Below, one piece after another: positions 3,444 to 40,371 of a stretch of DNA of 64,000 nucleotides (position 1 is its first letter; each line of letters opens with the position of its first letter). Below the pieces are notes generated by a model, which worked only from the letters and a program-made list of their open reading frames with translations, made no database searches and was not told the origin of the DNA. This DNA is from Gordionus sp. m RMFG-2023 (taxonomy: Eukaryota; Nematomorpha; Gordioida; Chordodea; Parachordodidae), in the NCBI RefSeq assembly GCF_954871325.1, contig NC_088775.1:91022805-91086804 (forward strand), written 5' to 3'. Made by a program: the position numbers and the translations under genes.

Positions 3444-6400
3444 ATGAAGAATTATATTTTAGCGATTCTATCATCCACGATTATATGTTTCTATAGTATT
3501 AAAAGTAATTTTTTTTTAAATATAACAGATATATTTTTTTTGTAAAACATTTTACCAAAAAATCTATTATTTTAATTTATTATACCAGTTGTTAAATCTT
3601 CAAGTATTTACTACCTATTATTATGTTATCTTCCCCTAAAAAGAGTTACTAACATTTAAAAAAAAATATTTGGCCTCAATTTCCTCCAAAGTTTCTAAGT
3701 CTTGACTTTGGCTGTATTTTGTATCTGATTGAACAAGTAATGTTGTTAAACTACATAGCTTTAGTCAAAACTACATAACCTTGTTTTTAACCAAATATAT
3801 TCCAAATCATTCTTCAAGTTGAGACTCAACTTAGAGACTTAATTCAATTTTTTAGGCTAAAAGCTTGAGTAAGCCATAATTGAGATGGTCGAAATTAGGT
3901 AATTAAACAACACTAAGAACAAGTATAATGATAAAATAAGACATTTCGATTAGAATTTTTGCTTATTATTTCTTAGGGATTTGACATATAAACGTATCAG
4001 TAAACCCACAAATATGCAAAATAAATTGCATTTTAATATTTTTTATAACTGGAATTTGCAGTCAGAGAGATGTTGATCGAGAAAAAGTTTGATATAAAAT
4101 AAAAGCTATTTAAGTTTTAATCATTTTTAGTTTTGGAGTCGGGAAATAAATATGGACTTTTATTGTAGATCTTTCAAAAGAATTTTCTCAAATAATAATA
4201 AATTATTTTGTGATACTTTGGCTTAACAATGAACAAAATAAAACTTTATTTATTGATATATTTATTTTTAAATAAAATCAATATATTAACAGGTAAAATA
4301 TAATTTTCAATCAACATGTTTTCTAAATAATCATAAAAAATATTGTTTAGACAACTGGATCATTTGCAGGCCTGTCCCGAGTAAGGCTAATTTTTATTAA
4401 AATAGACAAAATAAAATTAATTTAAATTTAAAAGTTAATATGACTTGCGTAAAAGAAAGTAAAAAAATTTTTTTATATTAATTATAATTTTTCATTGCTA
4501 TCTATAATATTTTCTTTCATAGATGGTAGTATTGTTTATACGATAACGGGTTGCATTTTGATTTTTATATTTAATAAAAATTAGCTTAATTTTAAATAAA
4601 ATGATAAAATTTTTATATGATAATGACAGAATATGTGGAATACGTTATTAACGGTAAGCTTTTAACCTATATTTAATATATATTAGTTACCTATTTAAAA
4701 AATCTTTCGTTAGGCTACATAAATGACCCAAACTATTACATCGAATCTATAGGTATATACTATATGTAAATTATCCCCCACTATTGGAATTAAATTTCGT
4801 AATAAAACTCACTATGTTCGATAAATATATAACATCAAGATTCAAATTTGTGGATGGGTCTAAGTAAATTAATATACATTTTTATCAATATTGTCGTATA
4901 GGGGGTTAAATCAAATATAAACCTTTAACAAATCTATAAAACTAAGATCATTTATAGCTCGGGTTTCTAGGATAATATGTAGACTACCAACTCTGTAAAT
5001 ATCAGTCAATATTTTTATAAATTTTATGGAAAGATATTCAAATTTATTAATACGACATTGTTTTAACTTCATTAAGGTAATCTATACTAATGGTCTGTAA
5101 TTGGCGTTTTTTTGGCGACCCGCTCACGCCAACATACATTGGCATGGTGGGTTTTTAAATATTTTTAATATTGCACGGGTAGCTATCTGGTTAAAAAAAT
5201 TTTAAAACGAGGCTTTCTGGCAAAAACCCGTCTATTGCAGACCTCTACTCTATTCTTGATGAAATACAATTCTGAAAACTCGAGCTTATAGATGATTTAA
5301 ATTCATAACATCTGCTAAAAACGGAACTATAGCCATAGTCTCAAATTATCTGAATTCTTTGCAACATATACTATACTATATTATATTATACAAATAACAA
5401 ATGATGCTGATATAATGTAAATAATTTGAATGGTAAAAGATTTGACATCCGAAAGCCTCACAGTTAACCTGGGTAATATGAATATCTTAGGAATTAATAT
5501 ATTAGCGTTTGTAAAAACCATTTAATATACAATAAATAGTACAAAGAAATAGACCACAGGGTAAAAAAAATATATATAGTCAATTTTTTATTTTCATATA
5601 TTAATTATTATTATCATTAAAATGAATTATATATAATTATTACAATATATTATTGTTAAATCTTAGTCATATTATAAAAAGTTCAAAACCATTATTAATT
5701 TTAAAGAAAATGTGTATATAATCTAAAGAATAGAATAGAATAGAATAGAATAGAATAGAATAGAATAGAATAGAATAGAATAGAATAGAATAGAATAGAA
5801 TAGAATAGAATAGAATAGAATAGAATAGAATAGAATAGAATAGAATAGAATAGAATAGAATAGAATAGAATAGAATAGAATAGAATAGAATAGAATAGAA
5901 TAGAATAGAATAGAATAGAATAGAATAGAATAGAATAGAATAGAATAGAATAGAATAGAATAGAATAGAATAGAATAGAATAGAATAGAATAGAATAGAA
6001 TAGAATAGAATAGAATAGAATAGAATGAAATAGAATAGAGATTAAATTAATAATTTACACTTATATGAAAAGGATTTTTCTTCCTTATTTTTTTTTATTG
6101 TTTTAATTTTTATATAGGATATAATCCATTTTTGAGAATCAAACTTAATTATTTTTAAACAGGGATGTTTTTTTTATTTTGAATTGGAAAACCATGTACA
6201 TTGTTAATGATTTGACATTTCATTAATAAGTGCATATATAGGCCTTAATTTTTTTTTTTAAAAAAACATAAAAAACAGTTTCTATTAGTTTAGCAAGCTT
6301 GGATATATGTAAATATTAAAATTTTTAAAAAGTATATTAGATTAAATTTATAAATGCGTCATAAAAGACAGAAGATCACAAGGTATAATAATTTTTTTTA

Positions 6401-9400
6401 ACAAAAAATTATTCTTTAAAGAAAGAAAGAAAGAAAGAAAGAAAGAAAATTGTAATTTAAAAATTAGATATTTTATGCATTCAACTAAAACTTTATATTT
6501 TTATCTTTGTTAAATAACATGAGAACTAATTATACAGGGAAGGCGGTTCTAGTGGATGTATAGTGGATATTCAATAATATTCAGTGAAATAAATCATTTA
6601 CATTACATAATTCACAATATATCATTTAAACCCACCTAAAGCAGCATCTGAGTCATAAATCACCTTTAAAAAATTAATGTAAAATTTTTTTTTCGGAAAA
6701 TTTTGAAACTAATTGTCATCGTTATAATTATACGAATTGCACATTAACGTCATTTAATCGACGCGTAAACCGCAAAATGGCGCTAACCTCCGAACATTCA
6801 ATTATTTTTTATAACTATGTATAATAATTTAATAATTATAAATAAAGATTAACTTATAAATTTCAGTATTAATGACAATGGGCAATATAAGTGATTTTAA
6901 TTAAATAAATAAACTGCCCTTCAATATATATTAGGAATTATCCAATGACATATATAATACCTAGACTGACGATTCATTCATTAAAAGTGTACATCGATGC
7001 AAAATCAGCTGGAAACGCTATCTTGGTCTAATCATTATTAAAATTTTAAAAGGAAGCCTAATTTGATCCTATATCTGATGCAAACTTAATTAGAATTACA
7101 GGATCATCGATATAAGGAAGCAAGTTATCAATTTAATAGTAGTTTTTAACATGAGAATAATTACTATATGTGTTACCAAAATGGCGGGTCCAGCTGATTT
7201 GCATTTAACGACGCTTAAAATTGCATTTTAATGAGTGAATCGTCAGTCTAGGTATGATATATCTCATTAAAATAATCAAATAACGAAATATTAAGATTTC
7301 ACCCCCCCCCCTGTTCATTATTCCGGTTATTCGATGTTGAACTTATCATCGTTTTAGAGATAATGGATTATAGAAGCAAACCTTTAGGGTCTAATATTTG
7401 CTTCCTTTTCCCCAGAGTACCCAATAATATCTACGAATTAGATTAGTGAGGTTAGGGTTAGCAAAGACCGCTTACCTATTATTACAAGTATGCTGAAACA
7501 TGACTTCCGTCTCAAGTTAGACATTCAATAATTATAGTGTTGTGATGATTTAATGAAACATATTTGACGATTAAATTAAAACCCATGCATAGTTATTTTA
7601 ATTATTTTTGCATAACAAAAATACTTTTATATGGATGTGTTTTTAATTTAATCGTAAATATGTTTCATAAAATTATCACGACACTGTATTATAACCTTTA
7701 AAAATAGGGGAGACCGGGGTAAAGCGATTGACGGGGTAACAATGTTAACGCGAATAACTTTTTAACCATTGAGTATAAAGACCTTAAATTTGGTGTGAAG
7801 ATGTATTTTTATATCTAATTTCTTACCTATGTTCATCTTTTAAAAAACTAACCTGGTTTTATATATTTTGTCAAAAAACTGTTTTTTACCCAAAAAATAT
7901 AAAAATCAATCTCTAGTATATTTTGCTTTTAGTAAAATTTACATATCCTCAGGATTCAAAATTTGGCACACATGTTCCTTAATGTATTAACTATAAAATA
8001 AAATTTATCTGACATCTTTAGCTATATTAGAAGTCACGCAATAACGATATATATAATATATGTCACCTAGGGGTAAAGCTGTTATGGGTAAAACGGTTAA
8101 AATATAAAATTATTCACATTAAATTTTTCATTCATTAATTTATTATAATCAAATAAATATTGATATTTAATATTAAAGTTACCAATTGAGCATTATTAAA
8201 ATTATGAAATTAATTCAATTTATTTAATTAATTATATATCATTTTAACTCTATGGAACTGGTATTGTTAATTATTAAAATGAAATTGTTTTATTTTATAA
8301 ATAAACAAGATAAGAGGATTTGCATATCAGCTTGCTAAAGAATATGGCAAATTTTTCCCAGAAAGCTGGACAACTAATGGTATGGCTGGAGAGGACTGGT
8401 TTATGGGGTTTAGAAAACGACATTCCCAACTTTCGATTCGTACCCCTGAAGCTACTAGTCTAGCAAGAGCATATGGCTTCAATCCCACAAATGTCAATAA
8501 ATTTTTTGAAAATTTAATTAAGCTATATAATTCTTATAACTTTGAACCACATAATATATGAAATGCAGATAAAAGTGGTTTCACCACCGTTCAAACTCCT
8601 GCAAAAATTATAGCACAGAAGGGTGCCAAACAAGTCGGCTCTATAACGTCAGGAGAAAGAGGAACGTTAGTTACAATATGTTTAGCCATCAATGCTATAG
8701 GCCATAGCATTCCACCATTTTTTATTTTTCCAAGAAAACGATACAAAGATCACTTTATTCGTGATGGGCCTATTGGCTCTAAGGGTGTGGGAAACGCATA
8801 GGGTTGGATGCAAGAGGAGGAATTTTTATCTTTTTTGGAACACTTTAAAAAATATTCTAGTGCATCCAATGAGAAAAATGTCTTATTAATCTTAGATAAC
8901 CATAGCTCTCATTGTTCAATTTCCGTTATAAACTATTGTCGCTCCAATGGGATTGTTATTCTAACACTTCCACCACATTGCTCGCATAAACTCCAACCAT
9001 TAGACAAAGCAGTTTATGGGCCATTGAAAAAGTTTTATAATGGAGCTATTGACACATGGATGAGAAATCATGTGGGCAACAATTTCAGATTTATGATATT
9101 CCAGGAGTGTTAAAAAATGAAATACCAAGGGCAGTGACACCAAATAATATATTAAATGGGTTGTTAACATGTGGCATATTTCCTTTAAACCCAAATATAT
9201 TTACAGAACAAGATTATATCTGCTTTAATAATTCAAATGCTAGCTCAAATATTGAATTTGAAAATAATGATGAAAATATTACAGTGACTCAAAATCTTAC
9301 AGTGACTCAAAATAATGATAGTGATTTATCTATATTATTGAACGAAAATGTTCCAGATGATATTGATGAACCTTATCATGATATGTTACCATCATGCTCA

Positions 9401-11970
9401 AAAAATTATAATAAAGTATTCATCCTTCATCTATAATACCTATTCCAAAATTATTCAATATTTCATCGGATAAAATATCGAAAAAAAAGAATTCAGAAAT
9501 ATTAACATCTACACCTTATAAAAAAAAATTATTAATTCAAGAGAAAAAAAAAGATATCAAAAAATAATTGTTTATGTGTTATTTGTAATAAAAACTATAA
9601 AAATAGTCGCGAGGGCGATGAATGGCTAAAATGTACAATGTGCCTTGAATGAGCACATGATAATTATTTTACATGTCCTTATTGTATAGATTAGTTTTTA
9701 AATAAAAATCATAAATAAATCTTAAATTTGTAATATTTGTTAAATAAAACAATAAATATGTGTCAAATATTATTTTAACCACTTTACCCTAGTGCTTATC
9801 CATTTTACCCTGTACCCAGGGTAAAATGGCGAAAATGAGTAGTTTTACATAACTAATCATAGCTTAAAATATTATAGATAGAGGGCTACACTTTTTTTTA
9901 TCTTGTAGAAGAGGGATGGGGCTACACATTGATCTATAATTTGTTATGTTTGACTCTTGTTTAAAATTTTTATGGTAAATATGCAAAATGCCTATCGTTT
10001 TACCCCGGTCTCCCCTACTTTTCTTCACTCTCTAATATAATTTTAATACTATTCAAAATCTTATCATTATATAAAATTCATAATAAATAATATTTGATTA
10101 TTATTAAAAAAAAAATATTATTTGAAAATTTTAAATAGAACATAGACTAAGTATAACATTAAATATATATAATATAATTTAATATTAGACCAATTTTCGA
10201 TTTTTGTTTTATATATATTTTGCTATAGTTTCAATAGATGTTTTTTTTACGAGTTTAATATTAAATTTAGCAAAAAAAAAAAATTTGTATTTAGTATTAT
10301 TAAAATATTAATGTAACCCAAAACCATCCCATAGATTATTACTTAAATTAAAAATCTTTATTAACTAAAAAAAAATATATATAAATAATGGTTAAAATTT
10401 AAAAAGAATTATGCTAGGAATTTATGGTTGAATTTAGTGTTTGTTGAATGAACGGCAAGATCGATTATCAAAAGTGGCGAATTTTTGCCAAAATAATATT
10501 ATGCAATATTGGGGATTATGCTCATAGATTAACTCTCAAGACTTACATAATAGGTTTAATGACACTAAGTTAAATCATATTTTCGTTCCGAAAATCCCAT
10601 TGGTATTTTAACTTTTGTGACTTCTATTGTCTTATAGATATTATAAATATTATATATTTTTGTGTTATAAATCGATATATAGGGGACGTAAATGGTACCT
10701 TAATAATATCTATAGGTAATATTATTAATGTTCAAAAAATTATTATGAACATTTATTTTATAAATTATGACCAAATTTATAGGTTTAAAAAATATTTTAA
10801 AATAACATAAGCTCTTCATATTATAATTATATTATAATATAAATGATTGATATTTTCTTCCTATATATATATATATATATATTAGAAGATTTAGAGTAAA
10901 CGTCACATCCACGTTTTCAGATATGTTATATTTTCTTATTTAATTTATTTATAAATCATGAAAGTTAAATTTCAACTAATACATAATCTGGAGAAGGATT
11001 TACCTCTTGACTTCAGTACTCGTTAAGTGATAATTTCTCATGCCACGCCTAGTCTAGCTAAAATAATGCGATATATACCTTACCATTTTCAATTTTTCGT
11101 CATTCCTGTCTTCATGTTACCTCTATTTACCAATCCATTAGCACTTTCCCCAATATAGCTATTTTCTATATAATCTAGTTATTTCTTGCTAAAACCTTAT
11201 TTAATTTGAGAAAATTATATATGAAGGGCATACTAAAGTCTCATAGCAGATATAATATATTTTTCTTTACTTCTTAGGAAGCAGAATATGGAATATACCA
11301 GGTTTTCATAAAATATTCTTTTAATCAATTAATTTTATAACAATAAATATTTTTTAGTCTCCGGGGAGGTCACGATTACATCTTATAGAGGTTTTTTAAA
11401 AATATCCTTCTATTTCGTTTTATTTTATTATAAAATCGTTAAACTTAGATGAACATCCATACACCCTACAATACAATGGTATATATAATTTAAAATACGG
11501 ACAATGTTTTCATTTTTTTATATTAAATTAGAAACAATAATAATATATATATATACAATAACGCTTTTTAAGAGAGAAAATTAAAATTTACTGGAAATTT
11601 AGATGTGGTTTTAGTGTTGTTAAACAGCTGCTAACTCAATATTTTATCCATAAAAATGCTGCTTAAGCCCTAGGAATTTTGATAATATATGTCCAGACCT
11701 TTGTTCATTCTATGAGTAAAATCTTCCGGCTTGCGTAATATTTTTTCTGGATAAAATATTTAGTTGTTAGATTAGCCCTTTTTAAAAAATCAGCTCCAAA
11801 CCATCCGTTTAATAACACTAGTTTTTTGAGATAAAATTTAATTAAAATAACTTATACCATGTTATTTTACTATAATTTTTATATATGTATTAAAATATTG
11901 TAAAATGACAGATTCAAGAATATTTCATAATTGGGACATGAATGGGAATTACATAATACATTTTCAATAG
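3444..11970 (+). CDS. Secreted micro-exon protein gene, copy A
   Basis: A spliced gene seen only by comparing copies. Exons: 3444-3504 (ATG, hydrophobic signal peptide), 3589-3603, 4351-4380, 4523-4549, 4630-4653, 4714-4752, 4958-4978, 5464-5472 (weak), 6294-6308 or alternatively 6279-6287, 6368-6382, 10683-10694, 11278-11301, 11358-11390, 11449-11478, and 11912-11970 ending in TAG. Every internal exon is a multiple of 3 and phase 1 at both ends, with AG before and GT after. The joined frame is open for about 137 codons. Exon 3 reads NNWIICRPVP, exon 6 YINDPNYYIESI, and the end has a Trp and a final HFQ. Intron 10 (4.3 kb) holds the pogo transposon. AATAAA lies at 12015. No family is recognised; a secreted effector role is inferred from the signal peptide, tandem copies and rapid change. 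Confidence 0.78.
4654..4713 (+). other. Short conserved intron (copy A; also B, D)
   Basis: This 60-bp intron separates the 24-bp and 39-bp exons. It starts GTAAGC and ends in TTTCGTTAG. The equivalents are 22187-22248 in copy B and 35850-35942 in copy D (GTAGGC to TTTCATTAG). Intron sequence and length drift while both flanking exons keep length and phase. This makes it the clearest single proof that the small exons are real. In copy D a continuous reading frame happens to cross this intron; it should not be taken as the protein. Confidence 0.75.
5092..5246. mobile_element. MITE with GGTCTG...CAGACC ends (copy A)
   Basis: Begins GGTCTGTAATTGGCG and ends TCTATTGCAGACCT, with inverted-repeat ends of the AGAGGTCTGCAAT type. 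It lies in intron 7 of the micro-exon gene. Copy B has it at 22663-22826 and copy D has a longer version at about 36342-36670. It therefore predates the divergence of the copies. No coding capacity. Confidence 0.65.
5727..6038. repeat. AGAAT microsatellite, about 62 units (copy A)
   Basis: An uninterrupted pentanucleotide array. In copy B the same locus (23291-23529) has about 48 units, and a second short array is present at 22581-22663. Copy D lacks it. Open frames across it on the minus strand are an effect of the repeat. Confidence 0.97.
6960..7252. mobile_element. 290-bp TIR element (copy A)
   Basis: Inverted ends of about 25 bases, TAGACTGACGATTCATTCAT at the left and its near complement at 7225-7250. 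Further internal pairing involves the AATCAGCTGGAAACGC and GGTCCAGCTGATTTGC blocks. Copies lie at 24932-25233 (unit B) and 51021-51304 (outside the array). Copy D has an empty site near 37580-37600. It is non-coding and non-autonomous. Confidence 0.75.
7535..7690. mobile_element. Foldback MITE, TAGTGTTGTGATGA family (copy A; B at 25511-25664)
   Basis: A nearly palindromic 155-bp element: left arm TAGTGTTGTGATGATTTAAT, right arm the degenerate complement ending CACGACACTGTA, with a middle around ACCCATGCATAG. Copy D has an empty site (near 38108). The TAGTGTTG end resembles hAT-type MITEs elsewhere in the window. Confidence 0.7.
7707..10015 (+). mobile_element. pogo/Tigger-type DNA transposon
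   Basis: A 2309-bp element flanked by TA at 7705-7706 and 10016-10017. The 17-base terminal inverted repeats GGGGAGACCGGGGTAAA are perfect, and the similarity continues for about 5 bases. Copy B has the uninterrupted site near 25685. It sits in intron 10 of the micro-exon gene and is in the same orientation. It encodes a broken DDE transposase (8313-9696). TA target duplication and the GGGGAGACC end fit the Tc1/mariner superfamily, pogo group. Confidence 0.9.
8313..9696 (+). pseudogene. DDE (pogo/Tigger) transposase, broken
   Basis: Starts inside a CENP-B-like HTH (RGFAYQLAKEYG, then WFMGFRKRH) and continues into a DDE_1 catalytic core. Catalytic acidic positions visible: Asp at 8568 (NADKSG), Asp at 8895 (LILDNHSSH), Asp at 9003 (LQPLDKAVYG). 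The typical PLNPNIFTEQD stretch follows. The tail (9569-9696) has Cys pairs (CVIC, CTMC, CPYC) of a small zinc-finger domain. Defects: TGA at 8559 replacing the conserved Trp, TAG at 8799, a frameshift near 9075, a frame break after 9436, and TGA at about 9648 replacing the Trp of the zinc finger. The N-terminus is missing. It cannot be active. Confidence 0.88.
11612..11820. mobile_element. hAT-type MITE, TAGTGTTGTTAA family (copy A)
   Basis: Left end TAGTGTTGTTAAACAGCTG, right end CCGTTTAATAACACTA. The inverted inner motif is CTAACTCAATATTTTATCC versus GGATAAAATATTTAGTTGTTAG. It lies in the last intron of the gene. Copy B has it at 28980-29169, with a GTTTTRA-like direct repeat on each side; copy D is empty (near 40250). 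Confidence 0.72.
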
Positions 11971-12320: not shown

Positions 12321-12326
12321 TTTTTT

Positions 12327-12393
<67 letters not shown>

Positions 12394-12394
12394 A
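12321..12394. repeat. CTTT microsatellite (copy A; B at 29608-29694)
   Basis: Pure TTTC tetranucleotide array downstream of the micro-exon gene. It is present in A and B and absent at the matching place in copy D (about 40708). Confidence 0.95.
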
Positions 12395-13306: not shown

Positions 13307-13342
<36 letters not shown>

Positions 13343-13790: not shown

Positions 13791-13828
13791 TTTTCAATTA
13801 ATAAATGATTATATTTATTTAATTAGGG

Positions 13829-17710: not shown

Positions 17711-19498
17711 CCCCCTTCTGTTCTTTCTTCAATCTTTCTGTGTTCTCGCAATCTTCGTGGAACCTGCTTCCAATCATTTGTAGTTTTTTGATGTTCTCCT
17801 GTCTTTTATGTCATCTTCTTCAATCTTTCTGTGTTCTCACAATCTTCATGGAACTTGCTTCCAATCATTTGTAGTTTTTTGATGTTCTCCTGTTTCTTTT
17901 ATTCTCTTTCTCAATCTTTTTGTGTTCTTACAGTCTTCGTGGAACTTGCTTCCAATCATTTGTAGTTTTATGATGTTCTCCTGTCTCTTTTATTCTCTTT
18001 CTTCAATCTTTCTGTGTTCTTGCAGTCTTCGTGGAACTTTCCAATCATTTGTAGTTTTTTGATGTTCTCCTGTCTCTTTTATCCTCTTCTTCAATCTTTC
18101 TGTGCACAGTCTTTGTGGAACTTGCTTCCAATCATTTGTAGTTTTTTGATGTTCTCCTATCTCTTTTATCCTCTTCTTCAATCTTTCTGTGTTTTCACAA
18201 TCTTATCTTCGTGGAACTTTCTACCAATCATTTGTAGTTTTTTGATGTTCTCCTGTCTCTTTTATTCTCTTTCTTCAATCTTTCTGTGTTCTTGCAGTCT
18301 TCGTGGAACTTGCTTTTAATCATTTGTAGTTTTTTGATGTTCTCCTGTCTCTTTTATACTCTTCTTCAATCTTTCTGTGCACAGTCTTCGTGGAACTTGC
18401 TTCCAATCATTTGTAGTTTTTTGATGTTCTCCTGTCTCTTTTATTCTCTTTCTTCAATCTTTCTGTGTTTTTACATTCTTCGTAGAACTTGCTTCCAATC
18501 ATTTGTAGTTTTTTGATGTTCTCCTGTCTCTTTTATCCTCTTCTTTAATCTTTCTGTGCACAGTCTTCGTTGAACTTGCTTCCAATCATTTGTAGTTTTT
18601 TGATGTTCTCCTATCTCTTTTATCCTCTTCTTCAATCTTTCTGTGTTCTCACAATCTTCGTGGAACTTGCTTTCAATCATTTGTAGTTTTTTGATGTTCT
18701 CCTGTCTCTTTTATTCTCTTTCTTCAATCTTTCTGTGTTCTTGCAGTCTTCGTGGAACTTGCTTCCAATCATTTGTAGTTTTTTGATGTCCTGTCTCTTT
18801 TATCCTCATCTTTGTGTTTTCACAATCTTCGTGGTACTTGCTTCCAATCATTTGTAGTTATTTGATATTCTCCTGTCTCTTTTATTCTCTTTCTTCAATC
18901 TTTCTGTGTTTTTGCAGTCTTCGTGGAACTTGCTTCGAATCATTTGTAGTTTTTTTATGTTCTCCTATCACTTTTATCCTCTTCTTCAATCTTTCTGTGT
19001 TCTCACAATCTTCGTGGAACTTGCTTCCAATCATTTGTAGTTTTTTGATGTTCTCCTGTCTCTTTATATCTCTTTCTTCAATCATTCTGTGTTCTTGCTG
19101 TCGTGGAACTTGCTTCCAATCATTTGTAGTTTTTTGATGTTCTCCTGTCTCTTTTATCCTCTTCTTTGTGTTCTCAATCTTCATGGAACTTGTTTCCAAT
19201 CATTTGTAGTTATTTGATATTCTCCTGTCTCTTTTATCCTCTTCTTCAAACTTTCTATGTTCTCGCAGTCTTCGTGGATCTTGCTTCCAATCATTTGTAG
19301 TTTTTTGATGTTCTCCTGTCTCTTTTATACTCTTCTTCAATCTTTCTGTGCACAGTCTTCGTGAACTTGCTTCCAATCATTTGTAGTTTTTCGATGTTCT
19401 CTACTCTCTCTTTTATTCTCTTTCTTCAATCTTTCTGTGTTCTCGCAGTCTTCATGGAACTCTTGCTTCCAATCATTTGTAGTTTTTTGATGTTCTCC
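17711..19498. repeat. 90-bp minisatellite, about 20 units (copy B)
   Basis: The same minisatellite as at 1691-2236, expanded to about 20 units, at the identical position in the large unit. Unit variants (internal GTGCACAGTC deletion type versus CTCGCAGTC type) alternate, which suggests expansion of a two-unit block. The flanks on both sides are almost identical to copy A, so the length change is recent. Confidence 0.9.
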
Positions 19499-21027
19499 TT
19501 CCAGGGCGCATATTTTCTATTATCTCTTGGATAATAAGAGTGTTTTCCATTATATGCCTATGATGTATATCTTTCACTTATGGAAGAATCTTTTTTTCTT
19601 ACTTCCTTTTATTATGAATAATGTATTCCTTAGGAGGATCTCCATTTATTTCCGGGAATGTGTCGTGTCTTAATTTATCGCTTTGATTTTTCATTTGTTG
19701 TTTTGTATTTATTTTTATATTCCAATATTTGTGTATTCTTTTTGGTCTTTGAATTCTCGACCGAGATTATTGAAAAAATTAGTATTGTTTATTGGATAAT
19801 AAAGATTCTATATTACAATGTTGTGATGATTTAATGAAACATATTGAGGATTAAATTGAAACCCATCCATATAACTCTTTGCAAAAAATAATTAAAATAT
19901 AAACAAAGCATTATTGAAAATTCTTTTATTACAGTGTTGTGATGATTTAATGAAACATATTGGAAAATTTAATTGGATTAATCGTTAATATGTTTCATTA
20001 AATCATCACAACACTGTATATTTTAACATGACGATTAATCCAATTAATTGCTTGTCCGAATTTAATTATAATATGTATTAAATTAAAATAATAACTTATT
20101 TTGTTTCCCCCCCCCTCACCCACCAATTATTGTATATTTAATAATGACACTAGTTTTCACTGTATTTAACATGATTATATTATTATTAACTTTTTTTCAC
20201 CTTTAAATCGAAAATGTCAAAGGAGTGAAGTCACTAGTATTTATAAAATTATTTGAATTTGGTATATGGTGTACCAAAAAAAAATGTTATAACGAATTGA
20301 AATAAATTACGAATGAAACTTGGAAAATTATTTTATAAGAAATCAGCTGTGCCCTCGACTTAGTTTTGATACGCTGAGGTTAAACAACTTTTGAACTAAG
20401 GTTACCCTATTTAAGGTTTATTTTAAAGTATTTGGTGGCATTTTTTGTTTTTATTGCTTTTTTTTGTTTTTGCTTTTTTGAGGTATGTTTCGAACCAAGG
20501 ATACATTCTAAATGCTAAACCTAACCTAACCTAACCCTAACTTAAAAAAATTTGTCTAAAGGAAGAAATACAAATACTTTGAGGTAATATCACCACTAGA
20601 GAAGGGGTAGCAGGGGCTAGAGTCATCAGAAAATTTGAAGAGTCCACTGAAACTTTTATATATTTTAGAAAATACTTTATAAAAAGAGGTAATACTGTAA
20701 AAAAACAAATTTTTTTTTAAAGTTCAGTTTTAGGAGATTAAATTTTAAATTAATAAAATTATTTTTTAACAACAAAAAAAAATTGCTTATACCAAACTTA
20801 TCAAAATTATAATTAATTTATTAATTAAATTTTTTTCTTTTAACAGAAATGCTTTCTAACCAGCTTATCAAAATTTTAATTAATTAATTTTCAAGGGAAT
20901 ACTAAGATTTTAAATTCGTTTTAACTATGATACCTAGTTTCAAAAATAATTATAACCTTATTTTTTCACTTTTTTTGTTAAATAAATTATATTTTTTGGG
21001 GGGAAAATATTTATCTTTTTGAAAAAT

Positions 21028-29315
<8,288 letters not shown>

Positions 29316-30936: not shown

Positions 30937-32276
30937 CGCACATTCATTTAATTCTGTTTATTTAAATTATATTTTCATTTTAGTTTTACCTTTTATTTTT
31001 ATATGTTAACCTTTTTAATATTATATTCTAATTTTAGTTTGTAAAAATATATATAAATGTTATGATCGTTTTGAAAAAGGAGAGATATATTAAATAAAGT
31101 AAATTATTTATTTTAGGCTCCTCATAGGCTCGCCACATTTTCTTCACCTAATTAATTTTTAAATAATAAAATCAAATCTATATGTATAATACTTAGTAAA
31201 ATTATAAAAGAAATAGTTCAGGGGGTAACAAAAAATTTATAGTTAGTTCAGCGGATATTAGGAAGCCAGAAAAAATTTTTTTTTCTCTTTAGGGGCCTAT
31301 TCAAATTTTTCAAGGGGCTATAAACCCTTCGCCCCCCCTTCCTTCTTTAGTGTCGCTGCTGCACTATTCTTTGTTTCTGGTAAAAGCGCACATTTTGTAT
31401 TTATGTCTTCGATGTAATGCGATGTCCTAGATTCTTTAAAAAGGCTAAGGCGTGAGTGCCAAAAGAAGTTAGTGTTGTATCAATTATTAGTAAGAATAAT
31501 GGTGGAAAATAAAGAATATTTGGCAGCTTTATTTCATTCCTGCATCATGAACATCAGCATCCTGGTTTAGGTTGGAGGATATGAGTGGGTCTACCTACAC
31601 AGATAAGATCCCAGGTTAAGAACTTATCATTCTTCTATAGGATCTTCGATAAACCATCAGAATGTTTACTTTGCGTGACAAAGTCCAGTTGATTCAAGAG
31701 TTAAAGGAATTCCAGGAGATTTCAAGAGTTTTAAAACGCTCCAAACTAAAGATGACTATTTTTTCAATCAATATTTTGATCTCTTGTAGATAATGGCAAA
31801 TATGTGATAATCGTAGGTGTAAAAAAATGTTCAAAATTGTAAGGTAATCCTTGGAGGAAAAGTGGTTAAAATTTTGCATAATTTTAATTAGAATTACTAA
31901 CATAATATTGATTAACTGTTTAAAAACTATTAAAAAAATAGAACAAAGTATGATAATTAAGAAAATCCTGATCGAATCTTAAAATAGGGTAGGAATGCTA
32001 GATAAAGGGTAATCTTTGGATACGGGGGAATATTTACTCAGGCTTTTATAGTTGTGCCACCCTTGGCAAAGTTTCCTAGTCACACCAATGTGTCAAAAAT
32101 TAATATTTATCTAATACATTCGAATTTTATTTAAAATTATATTAACCTAAGGACTTGTTATATTGTTTATTTCACTTAATATTATATTAATCTAATAGTT
32201 ACATTGATTGTTATTTACTTTTGAAAAGTATATATATATATATTTTCTTGGGTTAATAGTCAGTTAGTTATATTTG
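30937..32276. repeat. Truncated tandem unit, copy C
   Basis: This is a third, recent copy of the unit's 5' end. It is colinear with 1-1330 and 16047-17390 and stops abruptly after a shared block that contains an AT dinucleotide run (near 32230). The sequence that follows is unrelated AT-rich DNA up to about 33700. No micro-exon gene accompanies this fragment. The break suggests deletion or unequal exchange at the array edge. Confidence 0.85.
31662..31905 (+). pseudogene. Transposase HTH relic (copy C)
   Basis: Copy C counterpart of the same relic, with a few more substitutions (for example Pro-Cys changed near the start). It has the same stop codons downstream. It shows that the relic was already dead before the array expanded. 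Confidence 0.4.
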
Positions 32277-33700
32277 ATAATAAATAAAAGGATAAAAAAT
32301 TTATAAAATAAAAGATTTAGATAAAACTAATGAGATAATAAAAACTGTATGATGTGAGGCAGAAGACATGATACTAATATTACTTTTGATAAAGTTATTA
32401 CGAAACTAGATACTTAAGATTTGGAAGATAAACTAAAAGATGAGTTAGAGATAAAAAAAAAATGTATTATAATACATTAATATAAAAAAAAAGAACAAAA
32501 TAACTTATAAAGATCAAAATTAGAACTGTATGATCCAATAATTTTCGATCTAAAACTCATTTATAGTTACAAAATTATCATAATAAAACTCATAAATCTT
32601 GCAATAAAATTAGTGAGACAAATAAGTTAGACGATTAAAAACATAGTAATACCACATTTATTTGAGTCTGATTTTGATTCAGATTATCATCAAAATTGAA
32701 AAGACGTTAATAGGTCTTAACAGGAAAAAATTTTTTTTGTAAAATTAAAAATAAAAATATAAGGGACATATTTCGTACTAAAATATTTAAAAAAGTGTAA
32801 CTAAAAATTTTAATGTAATTTCTTTACATTATATGAAGAATTGTATAAAGTCTTATAAAATTACAATGTAAAAAATACTAATATAATAAAAAATGGGTGA
32901 TTCAATTAATATACAAAATGATTAAAAAAATTTGTGAAGAATAAAAATAATAAAAGGAGAATAGAAAATAACAAGACTATAATTATTTAAATTACAAAAA
33001 AAAACCATGTATAGAGATCATTTACTAAATATTTAAGATTAGAATTATTTTCAAGAAAAATTTTTATATTAAGACGCATTTTTAAATTAAAAAAACAAAA
33101 GGTGTTTAATTTAAACTTTAAAATAAAAAAGAGAGGGAAGTGTGCAAAATTAAAAATTAACTATAAATTATTATGCGCGAAAATTTTTAAAATTAATACA
33201 CTAGATTTATTATTCATTTAAAAAAGTGAAGATCCAAAATTATTTTTATCTTACCATATGTTTTAACGATATGATTTTTTAACAAATTATAGATCAAATG
33301 AAATAGTTGCTAATTATTTTATTTTTCAATTTTTTATAATTTCTAAATATAAAAAATTTTTCAAAAATACATTTGCACATTTTAACCCTCGTGGAAATCA
33401 TTTATTAATATATATATATATATATATAAATCGTTATACGGTACGTAAAAATTATATAAAAAACGCAAAATATAAAAAAATAAAATTAAACGCCAAACTA
33501 AAATGCGAATCACATATCAAATATTCTTTTGAATTTTATTTTCTATTTTTCCAATTTTTATCATTCTTATTCAATAATTCCTATTCAATTTAATATTCTA
33601 CTAAATGCATTTTCCAATTCCATTATTCATATTTGACATTCGACAAATTATTCTATACTATACGATGAATTAATGATAAAGATTTGAACAAAACGGGAAC
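32277..33700. other. AT-rich insert between copies C and D
   Basis: Extremely AT-rich sequence with many short A runs, an AT dinucleotide tract (about 33408-33428) and no open frame of note on either strand. It does not match the other array copies. It separates the broken end of copy C from the inverted minisatellite unit. I see no gene in it. Confidence 0.6.
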
Positions 33701-33701
33701 G

Positions 33702-33826
33702 ATGATAAAAGAGATAGGAGAACGTACAAAAAACAACAAAGGATTGGAAGCGTGTTCCGCGAGTTCCACGACGACTGCGAGGAACACAGAAAGATTGAAG
33801 AAAGAACAGAAGGGGGAATGATATAT
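33702..33826 (-). repeat. Single inverted minisatellite unit
   Basis: This block is the reverse complement of the start of the minisatellite in copies A and B (compare 1681-1780). It includes the CTTCTGTTCTTTCTTCAATC end, here read on the minus strand. It lies exactly between the non-repeat insert (32277-33700) and the start of diverged copy D. It marks a rearrangement junction at the array edge. Confidence 0.75.
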
Positions 33827-34254
33827 TTGAATTATATTAACTTAAATTTTACCTTACGGACTTGTTACATTATTTCTATCACTTAACATAATATTAATTT
33901 GATACTTACATTTATTGTTATTTACTTTTGAAAAGAATATATATAAAATTTATTAGGTTAATAGTCAGTTGTTTATATTTTATAATAAATGAATTCAAAA
34001 TAAAGTAATTTTGTATCAACATCATTTTAATTTAACACCATATTAAAATTAGTTGAACAAATATTCAAATTTCAAAAAAAAATAGCGGGTTGATAGCAAT
34101 TTGACCTTTTTGAAATATAAATATAAGTTTTTAATTATTTTTAGAGAGTAGTAGTTTGCAGTTTAAACAATATTAATAATAGTTCCCTTTATGGATACAA
34201 TTCTATTTGAGAATCAAAAAAAAATTCAAAACATTTGATATTATCTTACATAGA

Positions 34255-34545
34255 GGTCTGCAAATGACAGAATTTTAAGGCCCAGTCCTGGGAATTTAGC
34301 TTGTGCCCGGCCCGACTCAGTTTCATTTTTTTTTACTAAGGTTTTCTAATGAGAAATTTATGTTGTTGAACACCCAAAATAACAATTATTTATAATATTT
34401 GGAAGTGGCTAAATTAAAAAATATTATACTTTACGGATTCAATGAAATATCAGAATCATCAAATATTTATGAAAAATATTTTATCCCCCAGTCCAACTGG
34501 CCTAAATAATTTTCAGGGGCTGGGATTAGGCACATAACTTTACAG
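34255..34545. mobile_element. MITE-like element with AGAGGTCTGCAAATG end
   Basis: Left end AGAGGTCTGCAAATGACAG, right end CTTTACAGACCTTTA, and a GC-rich core with CCCGGCCCGAC and GGCCTAAATAATTTTCAGG. The ends match the GGTCTG MITE family found elsewhere in the unit. It is specific to copy D, upstream of the signal-peptide exon. Confidence 0.5.
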
Positions 34546-34962
34546 ACCTTTATAGCACCACAATTTTAATCTCATTTAAGGTATATAAAAAAAATTATTC
34601 AAATAAATAATTAAATTATAGATAAATTTTACATAAATTATAAAAAAAAACTAACATATACTATGAAATAAAATTCATATCTCTTTATAATTATTTATTT
34701 ACCAAAAAAAATGATATTTTTAACCTTGACAACTGTAGATAAATTTATTATTGAAAAAGATTGAAATGTAAAAAATTTAAATTAAATTTAAAATTAATTC
34801 AAATTTTTTAAACAAAAAATTACTAAAGTTAGATAAAATTGTATTCAATCCGTTTTACCAATTATTAAAGCTAGTGTATAAAATATAGTTAAAACTTCCT
34901 TGAATCGCTTAGAATATTAAATCCATAACTAACTTAAATTGCTGAAAAGAAGATTGTCTTAT

Positions 34963-37900
34963 ATGAATACATTTTCTTTGCCATTTTTGTCAGCTTTGAT
35001 GATAGCATTTGGTTGTAATATAGAAAGTAATTTTTTTTTTGTTTAAAACAACATTTTTATATATATATTTTTTTTAATTAATAATTATAAAATCTACTCC
35101 TATTATTATGTTAATAAGTTGTGGAATCTTCAAGTAAATTACCAATATTATATATTATACTTTAAATACTATAATTATAATCATCGCTGGATATTTGGGT
35201 GAATTACATAAATTTTATTTTGCATATTTTTTTTTGTCATTGAAGTTCGTGAAAAAATACAACACAAACTATATTTTAAAAAACAATTTAAATTATATTT
35301 AGCCAATTGAAAAATAAACATCTATCTCATATTACCACCCCAAAATATGCCAAACTTTAAAAATTGTTCATCTTCATAAAATTTACCCAAATATTATAAA
35401 TTTCGCCCCTTTGGCTTACAAATGACAGAATAAAACTTTTTATTTATTGATAAATTTATTTTTTAAATATAAAATCAATAACTTAACAGGTAAAAAAAAA
35501 AAAAAATTAATCAATATGTTCCTTCTAATAATAATAAAAACCTTGTTTAGACAATTGGATCATTTGCAGGCCATTCCCGAGTAAGCTAGCTTTAAAGAAT
35601 AGACAAAATAAAAAATTATTTTAAATTTAAAAGCTAATATGACTTGCGTAAAAGAAAGTAATTTTTTTTTTAAATATAACTTTTCATTGCTATCTATAAC
35701 ATTCTTTCATAGATGGTGCTATTGTTTATACGATAACGGGTTAGGTTTTGTTTAATTTTTTTAAAGAAAAATAATAGCTTTATTTTTTGATTAAAATGAT
35801 GATAAATAATATATAATAATGGCAGAATATGTGGAAGATGTTATTAGAGGTAGGCTTTCTATATGCCTATATATATTATATATTATGAGTTTACCTATTC
35901 AAAAAAAAAATAATCTTTATATAATTACTTATCTTTCATTAGGCTACGTAAATGACATAAACTTTTACATCGAATCTATAGGTAGTAGATACTATAAGTA
36001 AATTATTCCCCACTTCCTTTATTTACCCATTCCTATTGGAATTTAATTTCGCATAATATTCGTTTATGTTGGATAAATATTATATATAACCTTCAAGATT
36101 CAAATTTTTGGATGGGTCTAAGTAAATCATTACACATTTTTATCGATATTATCCGTAAAAGGGTTAAAAGCAAATCTAAGATTGTTAGCAAATCTTTAAA
36201 ACTAAAATCATTTATAGCTTCGGTTTATAGGATCGTATGTAGAATACCTTGTGTAAATATCAGTCAATATTAATATAAATTTTGAGAAAGATAATTAAAT
36301 ATATTTATAAAACGAAATTGTCCTAAATTCACGAAGGTACTCGAGATCCGCAATGGGTGAGTTTTTAGCCGCCGGCTCTTGCATTGGACTGGGTTTTCTA
36401 AAATATTTTTGACACTGGACGGGTAGCGGGCAGGTTATAAAAATTTAATTTTTTGGAGTAGATGGGCCGGTTAAATTTTTGGTATTTTTTTTTTAGGGCG
36501 AAGTGACCATAACAGAACTTCGATTTATTTTAAAATGATTATTTTTTTATTTCAGAATTATTGCGTATTACATATGTTTAATTAAAAATATACATTGAAG
36601 TAAAAATAAATAAATAATTTTTAAAACATTAGCGGGCTTTTTGGCTAAAACCTGCCCATTGCAGACCTCCACTCTATACGCGATGAAATACAATTTGGGG
36701 GAAAACGCGTGCTTATACCCGATTTAGATTTATAAAAATTTGCTTGAAAAGAAACGGGCCCTAGAGCCATAGATTTTTGCTGAAAAAACTCAATTGTATA
36801 TGAGATGAGTATGTATATATTCCCTATAAAGGGCCGGGTTAAATCGAGGCTGATAAACACTAAATATTTCCAAAAACTAATTGCTAACATTATACTTTAA
36901 TGCAAAAGAATTGATATCTGAAAGACTTACAATCAACTTGGGTATATAGTAATTTCAACACAACAATTTAAAATAATAATAATTATAATAATTACTGTAA
37001 AATTTTTGTTTTAAAATTATAATAAAGTATAAAATGTGAGACCAACTGGTAAAAAAAATGTATATACATTATTTTATATAAGGCCACGTACAAAGTTCAT
37101 TTTACTATTATATAAACCTGAAAATTTGTTTTAATTATCATATCAAGATATCTTATATATGCATCTAACTTTCATTAATGTAAAATAGTATCTTTTAGTT
37201 GGTTCAATATGGATTTAAGTATGAATTAATTTTTTTAAAAAACTATATAGATACTAATTTATTCTAAACAATTTTTTTTTTTTATCCTTGGCGTTAAGGA
37301 AGACGATTAAAATGTACGAATGCGATTTTCAAAAACAAATTTAAATATATATTAAATAGTTTAATTTGTATTTATTTTAAATGATAAAAATATAGGTATT
37401 TATATATTTTTAAAAAAATTGAAACATTCAATTATTTTTATACGATGTACACATACCATTTCATAATTATAAATAATGTAATGATTAACTAATAAATTTC
37501 GTAGTTAAATGACAACTAGGGGCTAAATAAATGACTTAAAAAAATATTTAAAAAAAAATGAACTTCCCTTCAATTCAATCATGTATATAACAAAATATTT
37601 ACTTTAAGCATCAAATTATAATAATATATATATAACTTTTATACAAAGAGAGGAGTTGATTTTTCGACCCATCACTTTCATCTCTAACCATAGTGATTGA
37701 CAATCTCTTATTGTCTTACACGCATATCATATAATATTGTCATAAGATATTGTGTATAATTAACTATATAATCTACTAATCTACATTATTTGATTGAAAT
37801 TGGACATTATATAATGTTATATATATATACAATGTAAAAATACACAATTACAATATAATATTGTCATAAAATATTATGTATAATTAACTATATAATCTAC

Positions 37901-40371
37901 TAATCCACATTATTCGATTGAAATTGGATATTATATAATGTTATATATATATAATGTAAAAATACACAATTAAAAACACTTTCAAATAACTAAAAATTAA
38001 AAATAAATTTCCATTCTCCTTGGCATTTCCAGTGATGACCAGGAATGTAGGCCAGCGACTATCATTATAAATATATGGACCATGACTTCCGTCTCAAGTA
38101 GACAAACAATGATATTATCCAAGCCTTTAAAAAAAAAGTCTTTTTCTCCACTCTCTAATCAATAGTAGATTCGAGATTATTAGCTTTAAATGACCAAACA
38201 TCTTGAATAGTCTGATCTATAGGATTGCCTAACCCTGAGACTCCCTATATTTCGATAACATCGTCAATAAAATATTTTCCTTTAGAGCAAAGGATCTAGA
38301 TCCCATTTCCTCCTTATAATTCTTTCATTTTTAAATTTATTTAGATGTTTTTTTTAAAAAATTATTCATTTAGCCTTTGGTTAGTATTATTTTTTACTCA
38401 TAAACCTTTTACATATAAGATTGCTTTTTATAATTAAAATACATCGTTATAATTTTATTGCTATTCAAATACCTATATTATATAAAATTATCATTATAAT
38501 AAAATAATATTTGATTATATAAAAAAAAATTTGTTATTTGAAAAATTTTTAGTACAAAAAAGACTTAGTAAATAATTAAAAAAATATATCAATTTAATTT
38601 AACATTAACAACACTAGTTAAATCATATTCTCGTTCCAAACCCATTGGTATTCCAACTTATGGGTTTCTACTGTCTTATAAATATAATAATTATTAATAT
38701 TTATTGTTGTTATAATCGCTATATATAGTGGATGTAAATGGTACCTTAATAATATCTATAGGTTTAATATTAATGCTTTATATATCATTATAAACATTTA
38801 TTTTATAAATATATAATCGTAATAAATCAGTTAGATAATCAAATAAATATCTTAAATTAATATAAGCTCTTCATATTACAATCCTACTTATCAGAAGATT
38901 TCGAATAAACGTCTTTTTTTAAAACCAAAGACACACACATTATTTCAGATAATTTGTATTTTCCCTACTTAATTTTTTATAAATCAATGAATGTAAATAT
39001 TTAACTAATACATAATCAGGAGAAGGATTATTTTTCCACCTGATTCCATATTCAATAAGTATCTATTTTTTTTCCTCATGCCACGCCTAGTCTGGCCTAA
39101 ATAATGTGATATATTCTCTTCTTTTTTTACCACACCACATCTTTCAATATTTCATCATTCTCGCTCTTCCTCATTCTTACCTCTTTTACCAATTCTTTAT
39201 CATTTTAAGCAATATAGCTATTTCTATCTACTCTAATTTCAGTTTCAATTTATTAATTCTGACCACCTAAAATCCATACATCTGCGATTCATAAATTTAA
39301 CAGATTCTATCCTTCCTAATTTGCAACTTCTTAGATATTGGAGCAAATGTTGTAGCATTATTCTCATTTGTCACCCCCTTTCACCATTTTTTTAGTGCTT
39401 CTTAATAGCTTAACCATTTGATTAATAATGCATGTATGTCTTAAATAATTATTTTTATTCTCCATTTATAGTCTTTAATCAAACAAAAATAAACCTCCCT
39501 CTATTTATGACCTCGATATTCATTCTTAATCATCATTTATCCCTTCCTCGTTTTTAAAACCATTATTTTCTATTATAATTTCGCTTTCTTATAGATTCAA
39601 TATTACCATCTTTTGATTCTTTGATTTTTTTTATTTATTTTGACTTAGATTATTTTCGCCAAAGAATATATTATCCAATTACAATTTTAACTATATTTAT
39701 CATAACTCCAAATCTCATAAAACAACATGTAATGATTGCACCTTCCAACTTTTCTTTCCTGCACCAATGATAATATCTGAAAACAAAGTTTTTCTCAGAT
39801 GTCAGCCATAAAAATAGTAATAAACTTAGTCTGTATATCTCTTATAATTCATATCTTTTGCGATTTTTTCACAAGATACATAGCAAAGTTAGAAGATTAT
39901 TTTTATGATGCTGTAGCAAATGTCATAGCAAATATAATATATTTTTCTTAGGAAGCAGAATATGGAATATACCAGGTTTCATGAAATATTCTTAATTAAT
40001 TAATTTTTAAAAATAATAATACTTTTAGTCATAGAGGAGGTCACGATTACATCGTATAGAGGTTTTAAATATCATTCTTTTTAGTTTTATTTTATTTAAA
40101 CATCGTAAACTTAGGTGAAGAACCATTCACCCTACAATACAATGGTATATATAACTACAATACAAATTGATTTCATTTTTTATATTTGTATAATATAATA
40201 TATAATAACGCTTTTAAGAGAGGTGAGATATAGATTCTTAAGAGATTTAGATGATGTTATTAATCCCTAAAAACTGATTGGTTATTTAATGATATATTGT
40301 AAATGATAAAAGGTTCAAGAATATTTTCTTCCTGGTTGATAAATGGAGATTACGAGATTCACTTTCAATAG
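34963..40371 (+). CDS. Secreted micro-exon protein gene, copy D
   Basis: Diverged, compact copy spanning 5.4 kb. Exons: 34963-35026 (signal peptide, 21 codons), 35119-35133, 35551-35580, 35713-35739, 35826-35849, 35943-35981, 36218-36238, 37189-37197, 37299-37313, 38729-38740, 39952-39975, 40029-40061, 40115-40144, 40313-40371 (TAG). The 9-bp exon homologous to 5464-5472 lies at 36933-36941 but its acceptor is AA. Without it the frame stays open for about 133 codons. The exon at 37189-37197 is needed: joining 36238 directly to 37299 would create TGA. The ATG visible just before exon 5 (35819) is not a start; it overlaps the acceptor and is TTG in copy B. The signal peptide differs almost completely from A and B, yet stays hydrophobic and the exon still ends in phase 1. 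Confidence 0.76.
36342..36670. mobile_element. MITE with GGTCTG-type ends, longer form (copy D)
   Basis: Older and longer relative of the 155-bp MITEs of copies A and B at the same intron position. It has GATCCGCAATGGGTG at the left and CCCATTGCAGACCTC at the right, and about 170 bp of extra internal sequence. The A and B forms are probably internal deletion derivatives of it. Confidence 0.55.
37731..37978. repeat. 124-bp direct duplication (copy D)
   Basis: Two copies of a 124-bp AT-rich block, first at 37737 and second at 37861, with a few substitutions. Each ends in a TATATATA run. It lies in an intron of gene D. Confidence 0.85.

Follow-up and report, generated by a model that had tools for sequence, protein, structure and literature searches.

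The window analysed here, a 64,000-nucleotide stretch of DNA from Gordionus sp. m RMFG-2023 (Nematomorpha), contains three tandem micro-exon gene copies at positions 3444-11970, 21028-29315 and 34963-40371, all on the + strand. Each gene comprises 18 exons with lengths of 61/64, 15, 30, 24, 27, 24, 39, 24, 33, 21, 30, 15, 12/15, 33, 24, 33, 30 and 59 nt. Internal exons of the models are phase 1 with lengths divisible by three and GT/AG sites throughout, as the original prediction had stated, and the start and stop coordinates it gave for all three copies agree with the exon models. Ordinary ORF calling is, as had been claimed, blind to these genes; the ORF listing (at least 100 aa) consists of transposase pieces and repeats only.

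Copy 1 begins with a signal-peptide-like exon 1 (3444-3504, 61 nt), followed by exon 2 (3589-3603, 15 nt), exon 3 (4351-4380, 30 nt) with the first cysteine of the mature protein, and exon 4 (4435-4458, 24 nt) with the second; a homologue of exon 4 is present in the deposited protein P0001 (copy M1). Exons 5 (4523-4549, 27 nt), 6 (4630-4653, 24 nt), 7 (4714-4752, 39 nt), 8 (4840-4863, 24 nt) and 9 (5440-5472, 33 nt) precede exon 10 (5540-5560, 21 nt), which has homologous exons in P0002 and P0005. The remainder consists of exons 11 (6279-6308, 30 nt), 12 (6368-6382, 15 nt), 13 (10139-10150, 12 nt, whereas copies 2 and 3 have 15 nt), 14 (10683-10715, 33 nt, carrying an NGTL motif), 15 (11278-11301, 24 nt), 16 (11358-11390, 33 nt), 17 (11449-11478, 30 nt) and 18 (11912-11970, 59 nt, ending in Phe-Gln-TAG).

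The same series was found in copy 2, where exons 1 to 8 lie at 21028-21088 (61 nt), 21173-21187 (15 nt), 21858-21887 (30 nt), 21939-21962 (24 nt), 22063-22089 (27 nt), 22163-22186 (24 nt), 22249-22287 (39 nt) and 22380-22403 (24 nt). The deposited protein P0002 starts at the last three residues of exon 8 and agrees with exons 9 to 17 at 23017-23049 (33 nt), 23104-23124 (21 nt), 23770-23799 (30 nt), 23859-23873 (15 nt), 25796-25810 (15 nt), 28063-28095 (33 nt), 28654-28677 (24 nt), 28729-28761 (33 nt) and 28820-28849 (30 nt). Its end differs from exon 18 (29257-29315, 59 nt), to which the last exon of P0005 (copy M3) is homologous.

Copy 3 consists of exons 1 to 9 at 34963-35026 (64 nt), 35119-35133 (15 nt), 35551-35580 (30 nt), 35634-35657 (24 nt), 35713-35739 (27 nt), 35826-35849 (24 nt), 35943-35981 (39 nt), 36098-36121 (24 nt) and 36909-36941 (33 nt), and exons 11 to 18 at 37189-37218 (30 nt), 37299-37313 (15 nt), 38553-38567 (15 nt), 38729-38761 (33 nt), 39952-39975 (24 nt), 40029-40061 (33 nt), 40115-40144 (30 nt) and 40313-40371 (59 nt, again ending in Phe-Gln-TAG). 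The exon 10 homologue between them (37028-37048, 21 nt) contains an in-frame TAA, which implies either skipping of this exon or truncation of the copy at this point.

These models bear out the predicted first exon of 61-64 nt (61, 61 and 64 nt in copies 1, 2 and 3) and the 59-nt last exon, and revise what lies between. Only 14-15 exons had been predicted; the 24-nt exons at 4435-4458 and 4840-4863 had been left out, and a middle series of 21, 9, 9-or-15, 15 and 12 nt is replaced by 33, 21, 30, 15, 12/15 and 33 nt. Another candidate of 21 nt (4958-4978), perhaps the first of that series, was rejected as its acceptor or frame is lost in other copies. The number of copies had also been underestimated. 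The array holds seven tandem copies, with relatives close by, and complete 18-exon models were built for copies 1, 2, 3, M3 and M4, with exon sizes spanning 12-64 nt. The longest intron is intron 12 or 13 of 17 in four of these five models, the exception being M3 (intron 2).

The encoded protein starts with a signal-peptide-like segment. Its single domain of about 150 residues, which is split over the 16 internal exons (12-39 nt each), contains two cysteines and several N-glycosylation sequons; the signal peptide (a hydrophobic N-terminus) and the glycosylation sites were called by inspection. Two AlphaFold runs gave mean pLDDT values of 41.0 and 29.6, and the better-scoring stretches of the first one, which look like a mix of strand and helix, are unreliable. 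As all internal exons are phase 1 at both ends, the frame survives the skipping, duplication or loss of any of them.

The models were compared with chance expectation in several ways. In the model frame, the internal exons of copies 1, 2 and 3 contain 0, 0 and 1 stops, versus 7-16 in each of the other two frames. A profile chain finder applied to 28 non-family 8-kb strands reached a maximum of 80.0 (mean 62.4, sd 13.1), and six distant loci kept out of the profile scored 135-262, all six above the null maximum and each with an ordered chain. The window copies reach 728-746, but necessarily so, since the profile contains their own peptides. None of 350 pairwise exon-length differences (seven copies, M1 left out) was indivisible by three, with a finder that tried only multiple-of-three lengths. 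Alignable introns contain 49 frame-breaking indels per 3,398 aligned bases between copies 1 and 2 and 69 per 3,094 between copies 1 and M3; from these rates, about 8 and 12, respectively, would be expected in the exons.

Substitutions follow a different pattern. Their density in exons and alignable introns is 0.056 and 0.052 for copies 1 and 2, and 0.152 in both for copies 1 and 3; exons lie above introns in a single pair of the six compared (copy 3 and M5, 0.169 versus 0.114). Over 1.4 kb of flank, exons and introns, copies 1 and 2 share 97% identity. The contrast between exons and introns is one of indels and not of substitutions, and the predicted free divergence of introns and flanks is only half borne out, substitution density in exons being about that of alignable introns. 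Values of dN/dS (NG86) were 0.45-0.89 in 11 of 12 computed pairs and 1.42 in one. As exon substitutions are not slower than intronic ones, dN/dS is mostly below 1 and the sequences are short, the data support neither strong purifying nor positive selection.

Exon substitutions as fast as those in introns, the exon 10 stop in copy 3 and the loss of a donor site and exons in M1 would suit a reading in which the window copies are decaying relics and functional members are only some, located elsewhere. The searches also recovered deposited proteins of about five genes only, whereas the genome has more than 100 exon sites, which points the same way. However, the reading frame runs unbroken through 177-178 aa in copies 1, 2, M3 and M4, every splice site is intact there, and no frame-breaking change of exon length was seen among the seven copies; we consider general decay improbable. 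The window contains three members of a superfamily, two of them open and one with a stop in one small exon.

Three protein models deposited for array copies agree with the exons at every letter, over 75-96 residues in each case. P0002 covers copy 2 from the last residues of exon 8 to the end of exon 17 (81/81 residues), followed by 46 residues differing from the modelled exon 18. P0005 corresponds to M3 exons 10 and 12-18 up to the stop (75 residues) and lacks exon 11. P0001 matches M1 exons 1-8, 11 and 12 (96/96 residues), omits exons 9, 10 and 14, and runs beyond the exon 15 donor. LOC135927452 (contig C3) is a two-domain member with at least 29 small exons, in which the same exon series occurs twice in tandem; its product P0003 is encoded by exons of 18-58 nt. 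Among its deposited annotation models, isoforms X8, X10, X11 and X12 drop whole exons in frame. All four start at an ATG within exon 3 and lack the signal-peptide exon present in P0003, which reflects either incomplete modelling or a non-secreted form. LOC135927452 and LOC135926650 (P0003, P0004 and P0006-P0009) belong to the superfamily by sequence, with E-values of 1e-12 to 1e-35 obtained before any of these proteins entered the profile. Both loci lie on contig C3 and are named only as uncharacterized.

When the genome was searched with exon patterns, 104 sites were found for exon 14 and 117 for exon 8, compared with none for the reversed-pattern controls. Their orientation is consistent: exon 8 precedes exon 14 on the same strand in 62 cases, follows it in 22 and lies on the opposite strand in one. 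Tandem arrays are present on several chromosomes. Protein searches returned nine deposited entries from about five genes, versus more than 100 exon sites by pattern, and most members were probably missed by annotation.

At E cut-offs of 0.001 or 0.01, the protein searches gave matches from Gordionus only and from no other organism, and neither Pfam nor PDB contained a relative above chance level. Host-derived genes have been reported in nematomorph genomes, and the domain might in principle have entered by horizontal transfer from an arthropod host, with fragmentation into micro-exons afterwards. As the protein searches matched no arthropod protein at these cut-offs and Pfam and PDB gave nothing beyond chance, we regard such an origin as extremely improbable.

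The architecture had been likened to that of schistosome micro-exon genes (MEGs) and aphid bicycle genes, and a tandem micro-exon family with a signal-peptide-like first exon is supported. Schistosoma mansoni has 35 MEG genes, described as having coding sequence mostly in exons of 6-81 nt, the longest introns mid-gene, micro-exon-skipping variants and an N-terminal signal peptide; the individual MEGs studied were reported as disordered (PMC10526429). The Gordionus genes have a putative signal-peptide start, and share very short exons, long introns tending to the middle, dispersed copies, difficulty of annotation and a parasitic worm as bearer. They also share splice variants by micro-exon skipping, seen here in the deposited isoforms of LOC135927452 and in P0005 without M3 exon 11. 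Unlike MEGs as presented in that source, they belong to another phylum, show no sequence relationship to them in the protein searches, number more than 100 exon sites, and have a domain that is recognisable, spans about 150 residues and keeps its exons in one fixed order in the copies that were read.

Bicycle genes form a large, fast-evolving aphid family. They carry a signal sequence and average about 17 exons, almost every internal one of which begins at codon position 2, and their proteins have one to several repeats (PMC9168663, PMC13041983). Each of these features has a counterpart here, the signal sequence a putative one, including many micro-exons and a repeated domain in at least one member. 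Bicycle proteins, known from aphids, phylloxerids and coccids, are further characterised by a saposin-like alpha-helical fold and by expression in salivary glands (PMC9168663, PMC13041983). The bicycle gene-structure classifier gave p of at least 0.99999 for all five complete models (cut-off 0.72), which could suggest homologues of aphid or coccid bicycle genes, inherited or transferred; it considers nothing but structure, and both its training and its application were confined to Hemiptera (PMC9168663). Sequence similarity is often undetectable even between bicycle genes (PMC9168663), and some phylloxerid and coccid homologues are reported to be without obvious Cys-Tyr-Cys (CYC) motifs. The aphid, phylloxerid or arthropod setting first proposed nevertheless has to be given up. 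The genome is nematomorph, no aphid protein matched at E 0.01 or better, and the mature window proteins lack the CYC motif, having only two cysteines (in exons 3 and 4) with no tyrosine between them. Homology is thus very improbable, and the acceptance of genes from an unrelated phylum by a structure-based classifier is a warning. The Gordionus family works like MEGs and bicycle genes, yet is neither by sequence, motif or lineage.

The exon structure, the lack of frame-breaking length changes, the arrays on several chromosomes and the deposited isoforms differing by whole micro-exons are shown here. We favour, as the probable explanation, a large, fast-duplicating micro-exon superfamily, probably secreted, varied by duplication and frame-neutral exon skipping and presumably put to host-directed use. 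Duplication and skipping would then expose the arthropod host to a diverse array of secreted proteins, perhaps for immune evasion or host manipulation in the manner of schistosome MEGs. A host-directed function is proposed here by analogy.

All of the structural evidence would fit equally well if the proteins acted inside the worm or towards its environment (in gut, gland or cuticle, as reproductive or antimicrobial secretion, or partly within cells), with duplication and skipping serving another arms race or none. Values of dN/dS mostly below 1 and the four LOC135927452 isoforms without a signal-peptide exon fit such a role, while the size of the family, its tandem clustering and divergence, and the variety of isoforms recall host-interface families (PMC9168663, PMC10526429). 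We judge a role of this kind rather unlikely, though a serious contender.

A micro-exon layout familiar chiefly from blood flukes and aphids may have arisen anew in a further parasite. More specifically, we tentatively propose, at slightly under even chances, an independently arisen micro-exon effector system in Ecdysozoa, within a phylum known for steering host behaviour, with one secreted domain, about 16 internal phase-1 exons, some 100 or more loci on several chromosomes and a combinatorial repertoire via exon skipping. If its origin was independent, micro-exon architecture would be a solution that evolution has reached repeatedly for the secreted proteins of parasites, and gene structure by itself would be unusable as evidence of bicycle homology. 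In the literature surveyed, which had Nematomorpha genome papers outside its scope and in which just two papers name both nematomorphs and micro-exons, each in passing, secreted families of this kind come from flatworm parasites and from aphids and related sap-feeding insects. A horsehair-worm superfamily of such size would be a convergent case and a source of candidates for dealing with hosts.

When the gene models were rebuilt from the sequence and its relatives, each of the three copies in the window (copy 1, 3444-11970; copy 2, 21028-29315; copy 3, 34963-40371) consisted of 18 exons. The exon lengths are 61 nt (64 nt in copy 3), 15, 30, 24, 27, 24, 39, 24, 33, 21, 30, 15, 12 (15 in copies 2 and 3), 33, 24, 33, 30 and 59 nt, and every internal exon is in phase 1 at both ends. 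The predicted proteins have 177 aa (copy 1) and 178 aa (copy 2); copy 3 has 179 codons ahead of the final stop, including one in-frame stop in exon 10. The original prediction of three tandem micro-exon genes of 14-15 exons agrees with these models in its three copies, their end points and their outer exons; in the middle of the gene, some of its exons were incorrect and others had been overlooked. Our first 14-exon models were also incomplete, and deposited proteins revealed four further exons. A candidate 21-nt exon (4958-4978) was dropped because other copies lose the acceptor or the frame.

Three deposited proteins of Gordionus sp. m RMFG-2023, all of them from this array, were aligned to the models. 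P0002 joins copy 2 three residues before the end of exon 8 and follows it to the end of exon 17 (81/81 residues identical); its 46 residues beyond exon 17 differ from the modelled continuation. P0001 (LOC135930934) matches exons 1-8, 11 and 12 of M1, one of five further copies (M1-M5) outside the window, at 96/96 residues. It lacks exons 9, 10 and 14; the residues that follow were located at M1 exons 13 and 15, and the protein ends at a stop reached by reading through the donor site of exon 15. P0005 represents exons 10 and 12-18 of copy M3 to the stop (75 residues), with exon 11 absent. Between them, these proteins account for each of the 18 exons in at least one copy (P0002 supplying exons 9 and 14, P0005 exon 18); the deposited models were made independently, but P0001 and P0002 helped to locate four of the 18 exons. 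The aphid and phylloxerid setting first proposed does not hold, as the array's deposited proteins are those of Gordionus, a horsehair worm of the phylum Nematomorpha. An ERGA paper gives Gordionus montsenyensis among its reference genomes (PMC11408602); we infer that it is the same animal as the source of our genome.

Exon skipping was seen in the deposited isoforms of LOC135927452, located within C3:46642600-46657799 on the minus strand. Of the 300 residues of its product P0003, 290 were mapped to 29 exons, each 18-58 nt long. The internal exons are all multiples of three, and the set forms the same series twice in tandem, giving two domains. Domain number seems variable within the family, as has been reported for bicycle genes. 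For the four isoforms X8, X10, X11 and X12, which have 261-271 residues, 24-25 exons account for 243-251 residues, with the final ones unplaced within this region. Domain 1 lacks exons 11 and 13 in X8 (P0004) and X11 (P0008), exon 6 being missing also in X11; X10 (P0006) lacks exons 13 and 14, and domain 2 of X12 (P0007) lacks exons 11 and 13. Exon 4 of domain 2 has a 45-nt form in all four isoforms versus 24 nt in P0003. All four start at an ATG within exon 3 and are therefore without the signal-peptide exon of P0003. In the deposited annotation, every one of these isoform differences keeps the frame. RefSeq isoforms of this kind are usually based on RNA reads.

The exon lengths were compared among seven copies (M1 left out). 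None of the 350 comparisons differed by other than a multiple of three and 28 differed by a multiple of three, in a finder that tried multiples of three only. In introns, copies 1 and 2 differ by 49 frame-breaking indels over 3,398 aligned bases, and copies 1 and M3 by 69 over 3,094; these intron comparisons, like those of substitution density below, took introns shorter than 900 nt and of similar length. The aligner put 6-13 gaps into exons in four of the six pairs, though the exon lengths agree modulo three; because of this conflict, the frame argument rests on exon lengths. Substitution density in exons was about that of alignable introns in five of the six copy pairs (copies 1 and 2, 30/534 in exons and 176/3398 in introns; copies 1 and 3, 0.152 in both), and in copy 3 versus M5 exons were above introns (0.169 v 0.114). 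With copy 1 against either copy 2 or M4 left out, dN/dS (NG86) was 0.45-0.89 in 11 of the 12 computed pairs and 1.42 in copy 1 v M3. Exons undetected or dropped as weak were 3 and 5 in M2, 3, 5 and 6 in M5, and 13, 15, 17 and 18 in M1; the residues of M1 exons 13 and 15 were recovered afterwards via P0001.

The array consists of seven copies at C1:90.97-91.06 Mb (C1 being the contig of the window), with one more copy on the opposite strand at C1:90.44-90.45 Mb and further relatives, marked by exon-14 sites, at C1:90.1-90.9 Mb. Genome-wide, the 30-nt exon-14 pattern was found at 36 sites (≤3 mismatches), a shorter degenerate exon-14 pattern at 104 sites (≤1 mismatch; 47 forward, 57 reverse) and the exon-8 pattern at 117 sites (≤3 mismatches; 52 forward, 65 reverse). 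Reversed-pattern controls for these genome searches gave 0 sites every time. Most of the matches listed cluster at C1:90-91, C3:0.2-5, C3:44, C4:2.3-2.9, C4:28.1-28.6, C4:32-33 and C5:0.2-0.3 Mb. Using 100 of the 104 exon-14 and 100 of the 117 exon-8 sites, exon 8 within 8 kb of exon 14 lay upstream on the same strand in 62 cases, downstream in 22 and on the opposite strand in 1, among the matches listed. The merged sites form 154 places among the matches listed, and the gene number is lower, because two-domain genes occur and site pairs separated by more than 5 kb were left unmerged.

A chain finder was constructed from the exon peptides of the array copies, P0003 and P0009 (another Gordionus protein). 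For non-family DNA of this genome (28 strands), its mean score was 62.4 and its maximum 80.0; its scores on the window copies (728-746) are high by construction. Six distant 8-kb loci, picked for having exon 14, scored 254.5, 135.4, 261.6, 191.9, 149.7 and 252.9, with 15, 12, 16, 13, 16 and 12 chained exons, respectively, some of them weak. Their antisense strands scored 40-69. Without exon 14, one locus (L030) would score about 101, a little above the null maximum of 80. In translating the six loci, 15 of 84 chained exons were omitted as weak, and five models, excluding L030, entered a ten-row protein alignment. The NGTL of exon 14 is invariant in 10/10 rows, in part because the distant rows had been selected for exon 14.

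In their mature form, the window proteins contain two cysteines, from exons 3 and 4, and copy 1 has five N-x-S/T sequons by inspection. We infer that the proteins are secreted and N-glycosylated and carry one disulphide. Pfam and PDB sequence searches, the initial ones with the incomplete 14-exon models as query, returned nothing beyond chance (best E 0.026 and 0.28, respectively, below curated cut-offs where given). In protein searches, 2 of 33 candidates passed at E 0.001 with the 14-exon query, none outside Gordionus, and 9 of 4,762 and 9 of 1,912 passed at E 0.01, all Gordionus; the nine entries represent 21 member sequences. Two AlphaFold predictions were too poor for use or fold comparison.

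The family has symmetric micro-exons without frame-breaking length change, is spread in tandem and has skipped-exon isoforms in the deposited annotation. Our main reading, on balance a probable one, is that duplication and frame-neutral exon skipping vary proteins that are probably secreted and host-facing. The isoforms lacking the signal-peptide exon and the divergent ends of P0001 and P0002 weigh slightly against this reading. Tandem duplication would multiply the gene copies and vary the set of secreted proteins, symmetric phase-1 micro-exons could be skipped without change of frame to give variant proteins, and these variants would face the host. Judging from the parts of the literature available, schistosome MEGs are the closest functional parallel (PMC10526429) and aphid bicycle genes the closest structural one (PMC9168663, PMC13041983). 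The published bicycle classifier accepts the Gordionus genes (p at least 0.99999), whereas motif, sequence and phylum disagree. On present evidence, the family functions like the MEG and bicycle systems and is a member of neither.

Birth-and-death evolution looks to be under way in the array: the stop of copy 3 sits in an exon that could be skipped without frame loss, and M1 has lost one donor site and exons. Copies 1 and M4 share 99 % identity across the first kilobase, and intron 12 measures 3,756 nt in copy 1 versus 1,441 nt in M4. Intron 12 of copy 1 holds a DNA transposon (7707-10015; DDE_1, PF03184, in ORF 8808-9110), which we label pogo-like, with matching terminal repeats and TA at its flanks by inspection. 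Its insertion looks recent because near-identical M4 has an intron 12 shorter by 2.3 kb. Upstream of copies 1, 2 and M4 there is a 91-bp minisatellite (window 1699-2231 and 17721-19499; 5119-7689 of genome stretch L017) that may have aided unequal crossing-over; none was reported at score ≥200 in the stretch carrying M3 (L016).

Other repeats were also observed. Intron 2 of copy 1 contains a dispersed repeat of about 180 bp (3738-3916), which occurs at about 30 genome places among the matches listed, mostly at 77-86 % identity. Another of about 400 bp, in the first 2.1 kb of C1:90450001-90460000, has 39 other places among the matches listed (91-96 % identity), and a nucleotide search using a fragment of copy M5 returned that fragment itself and this repeat. 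A transposase remnant across several frames (45748-47182; DUF659, PF04937), hAT-like by our own label, and a tandem repeat with a period of 106 bp (49036-49395; 3.4 copies, 98 % matches) were also found.
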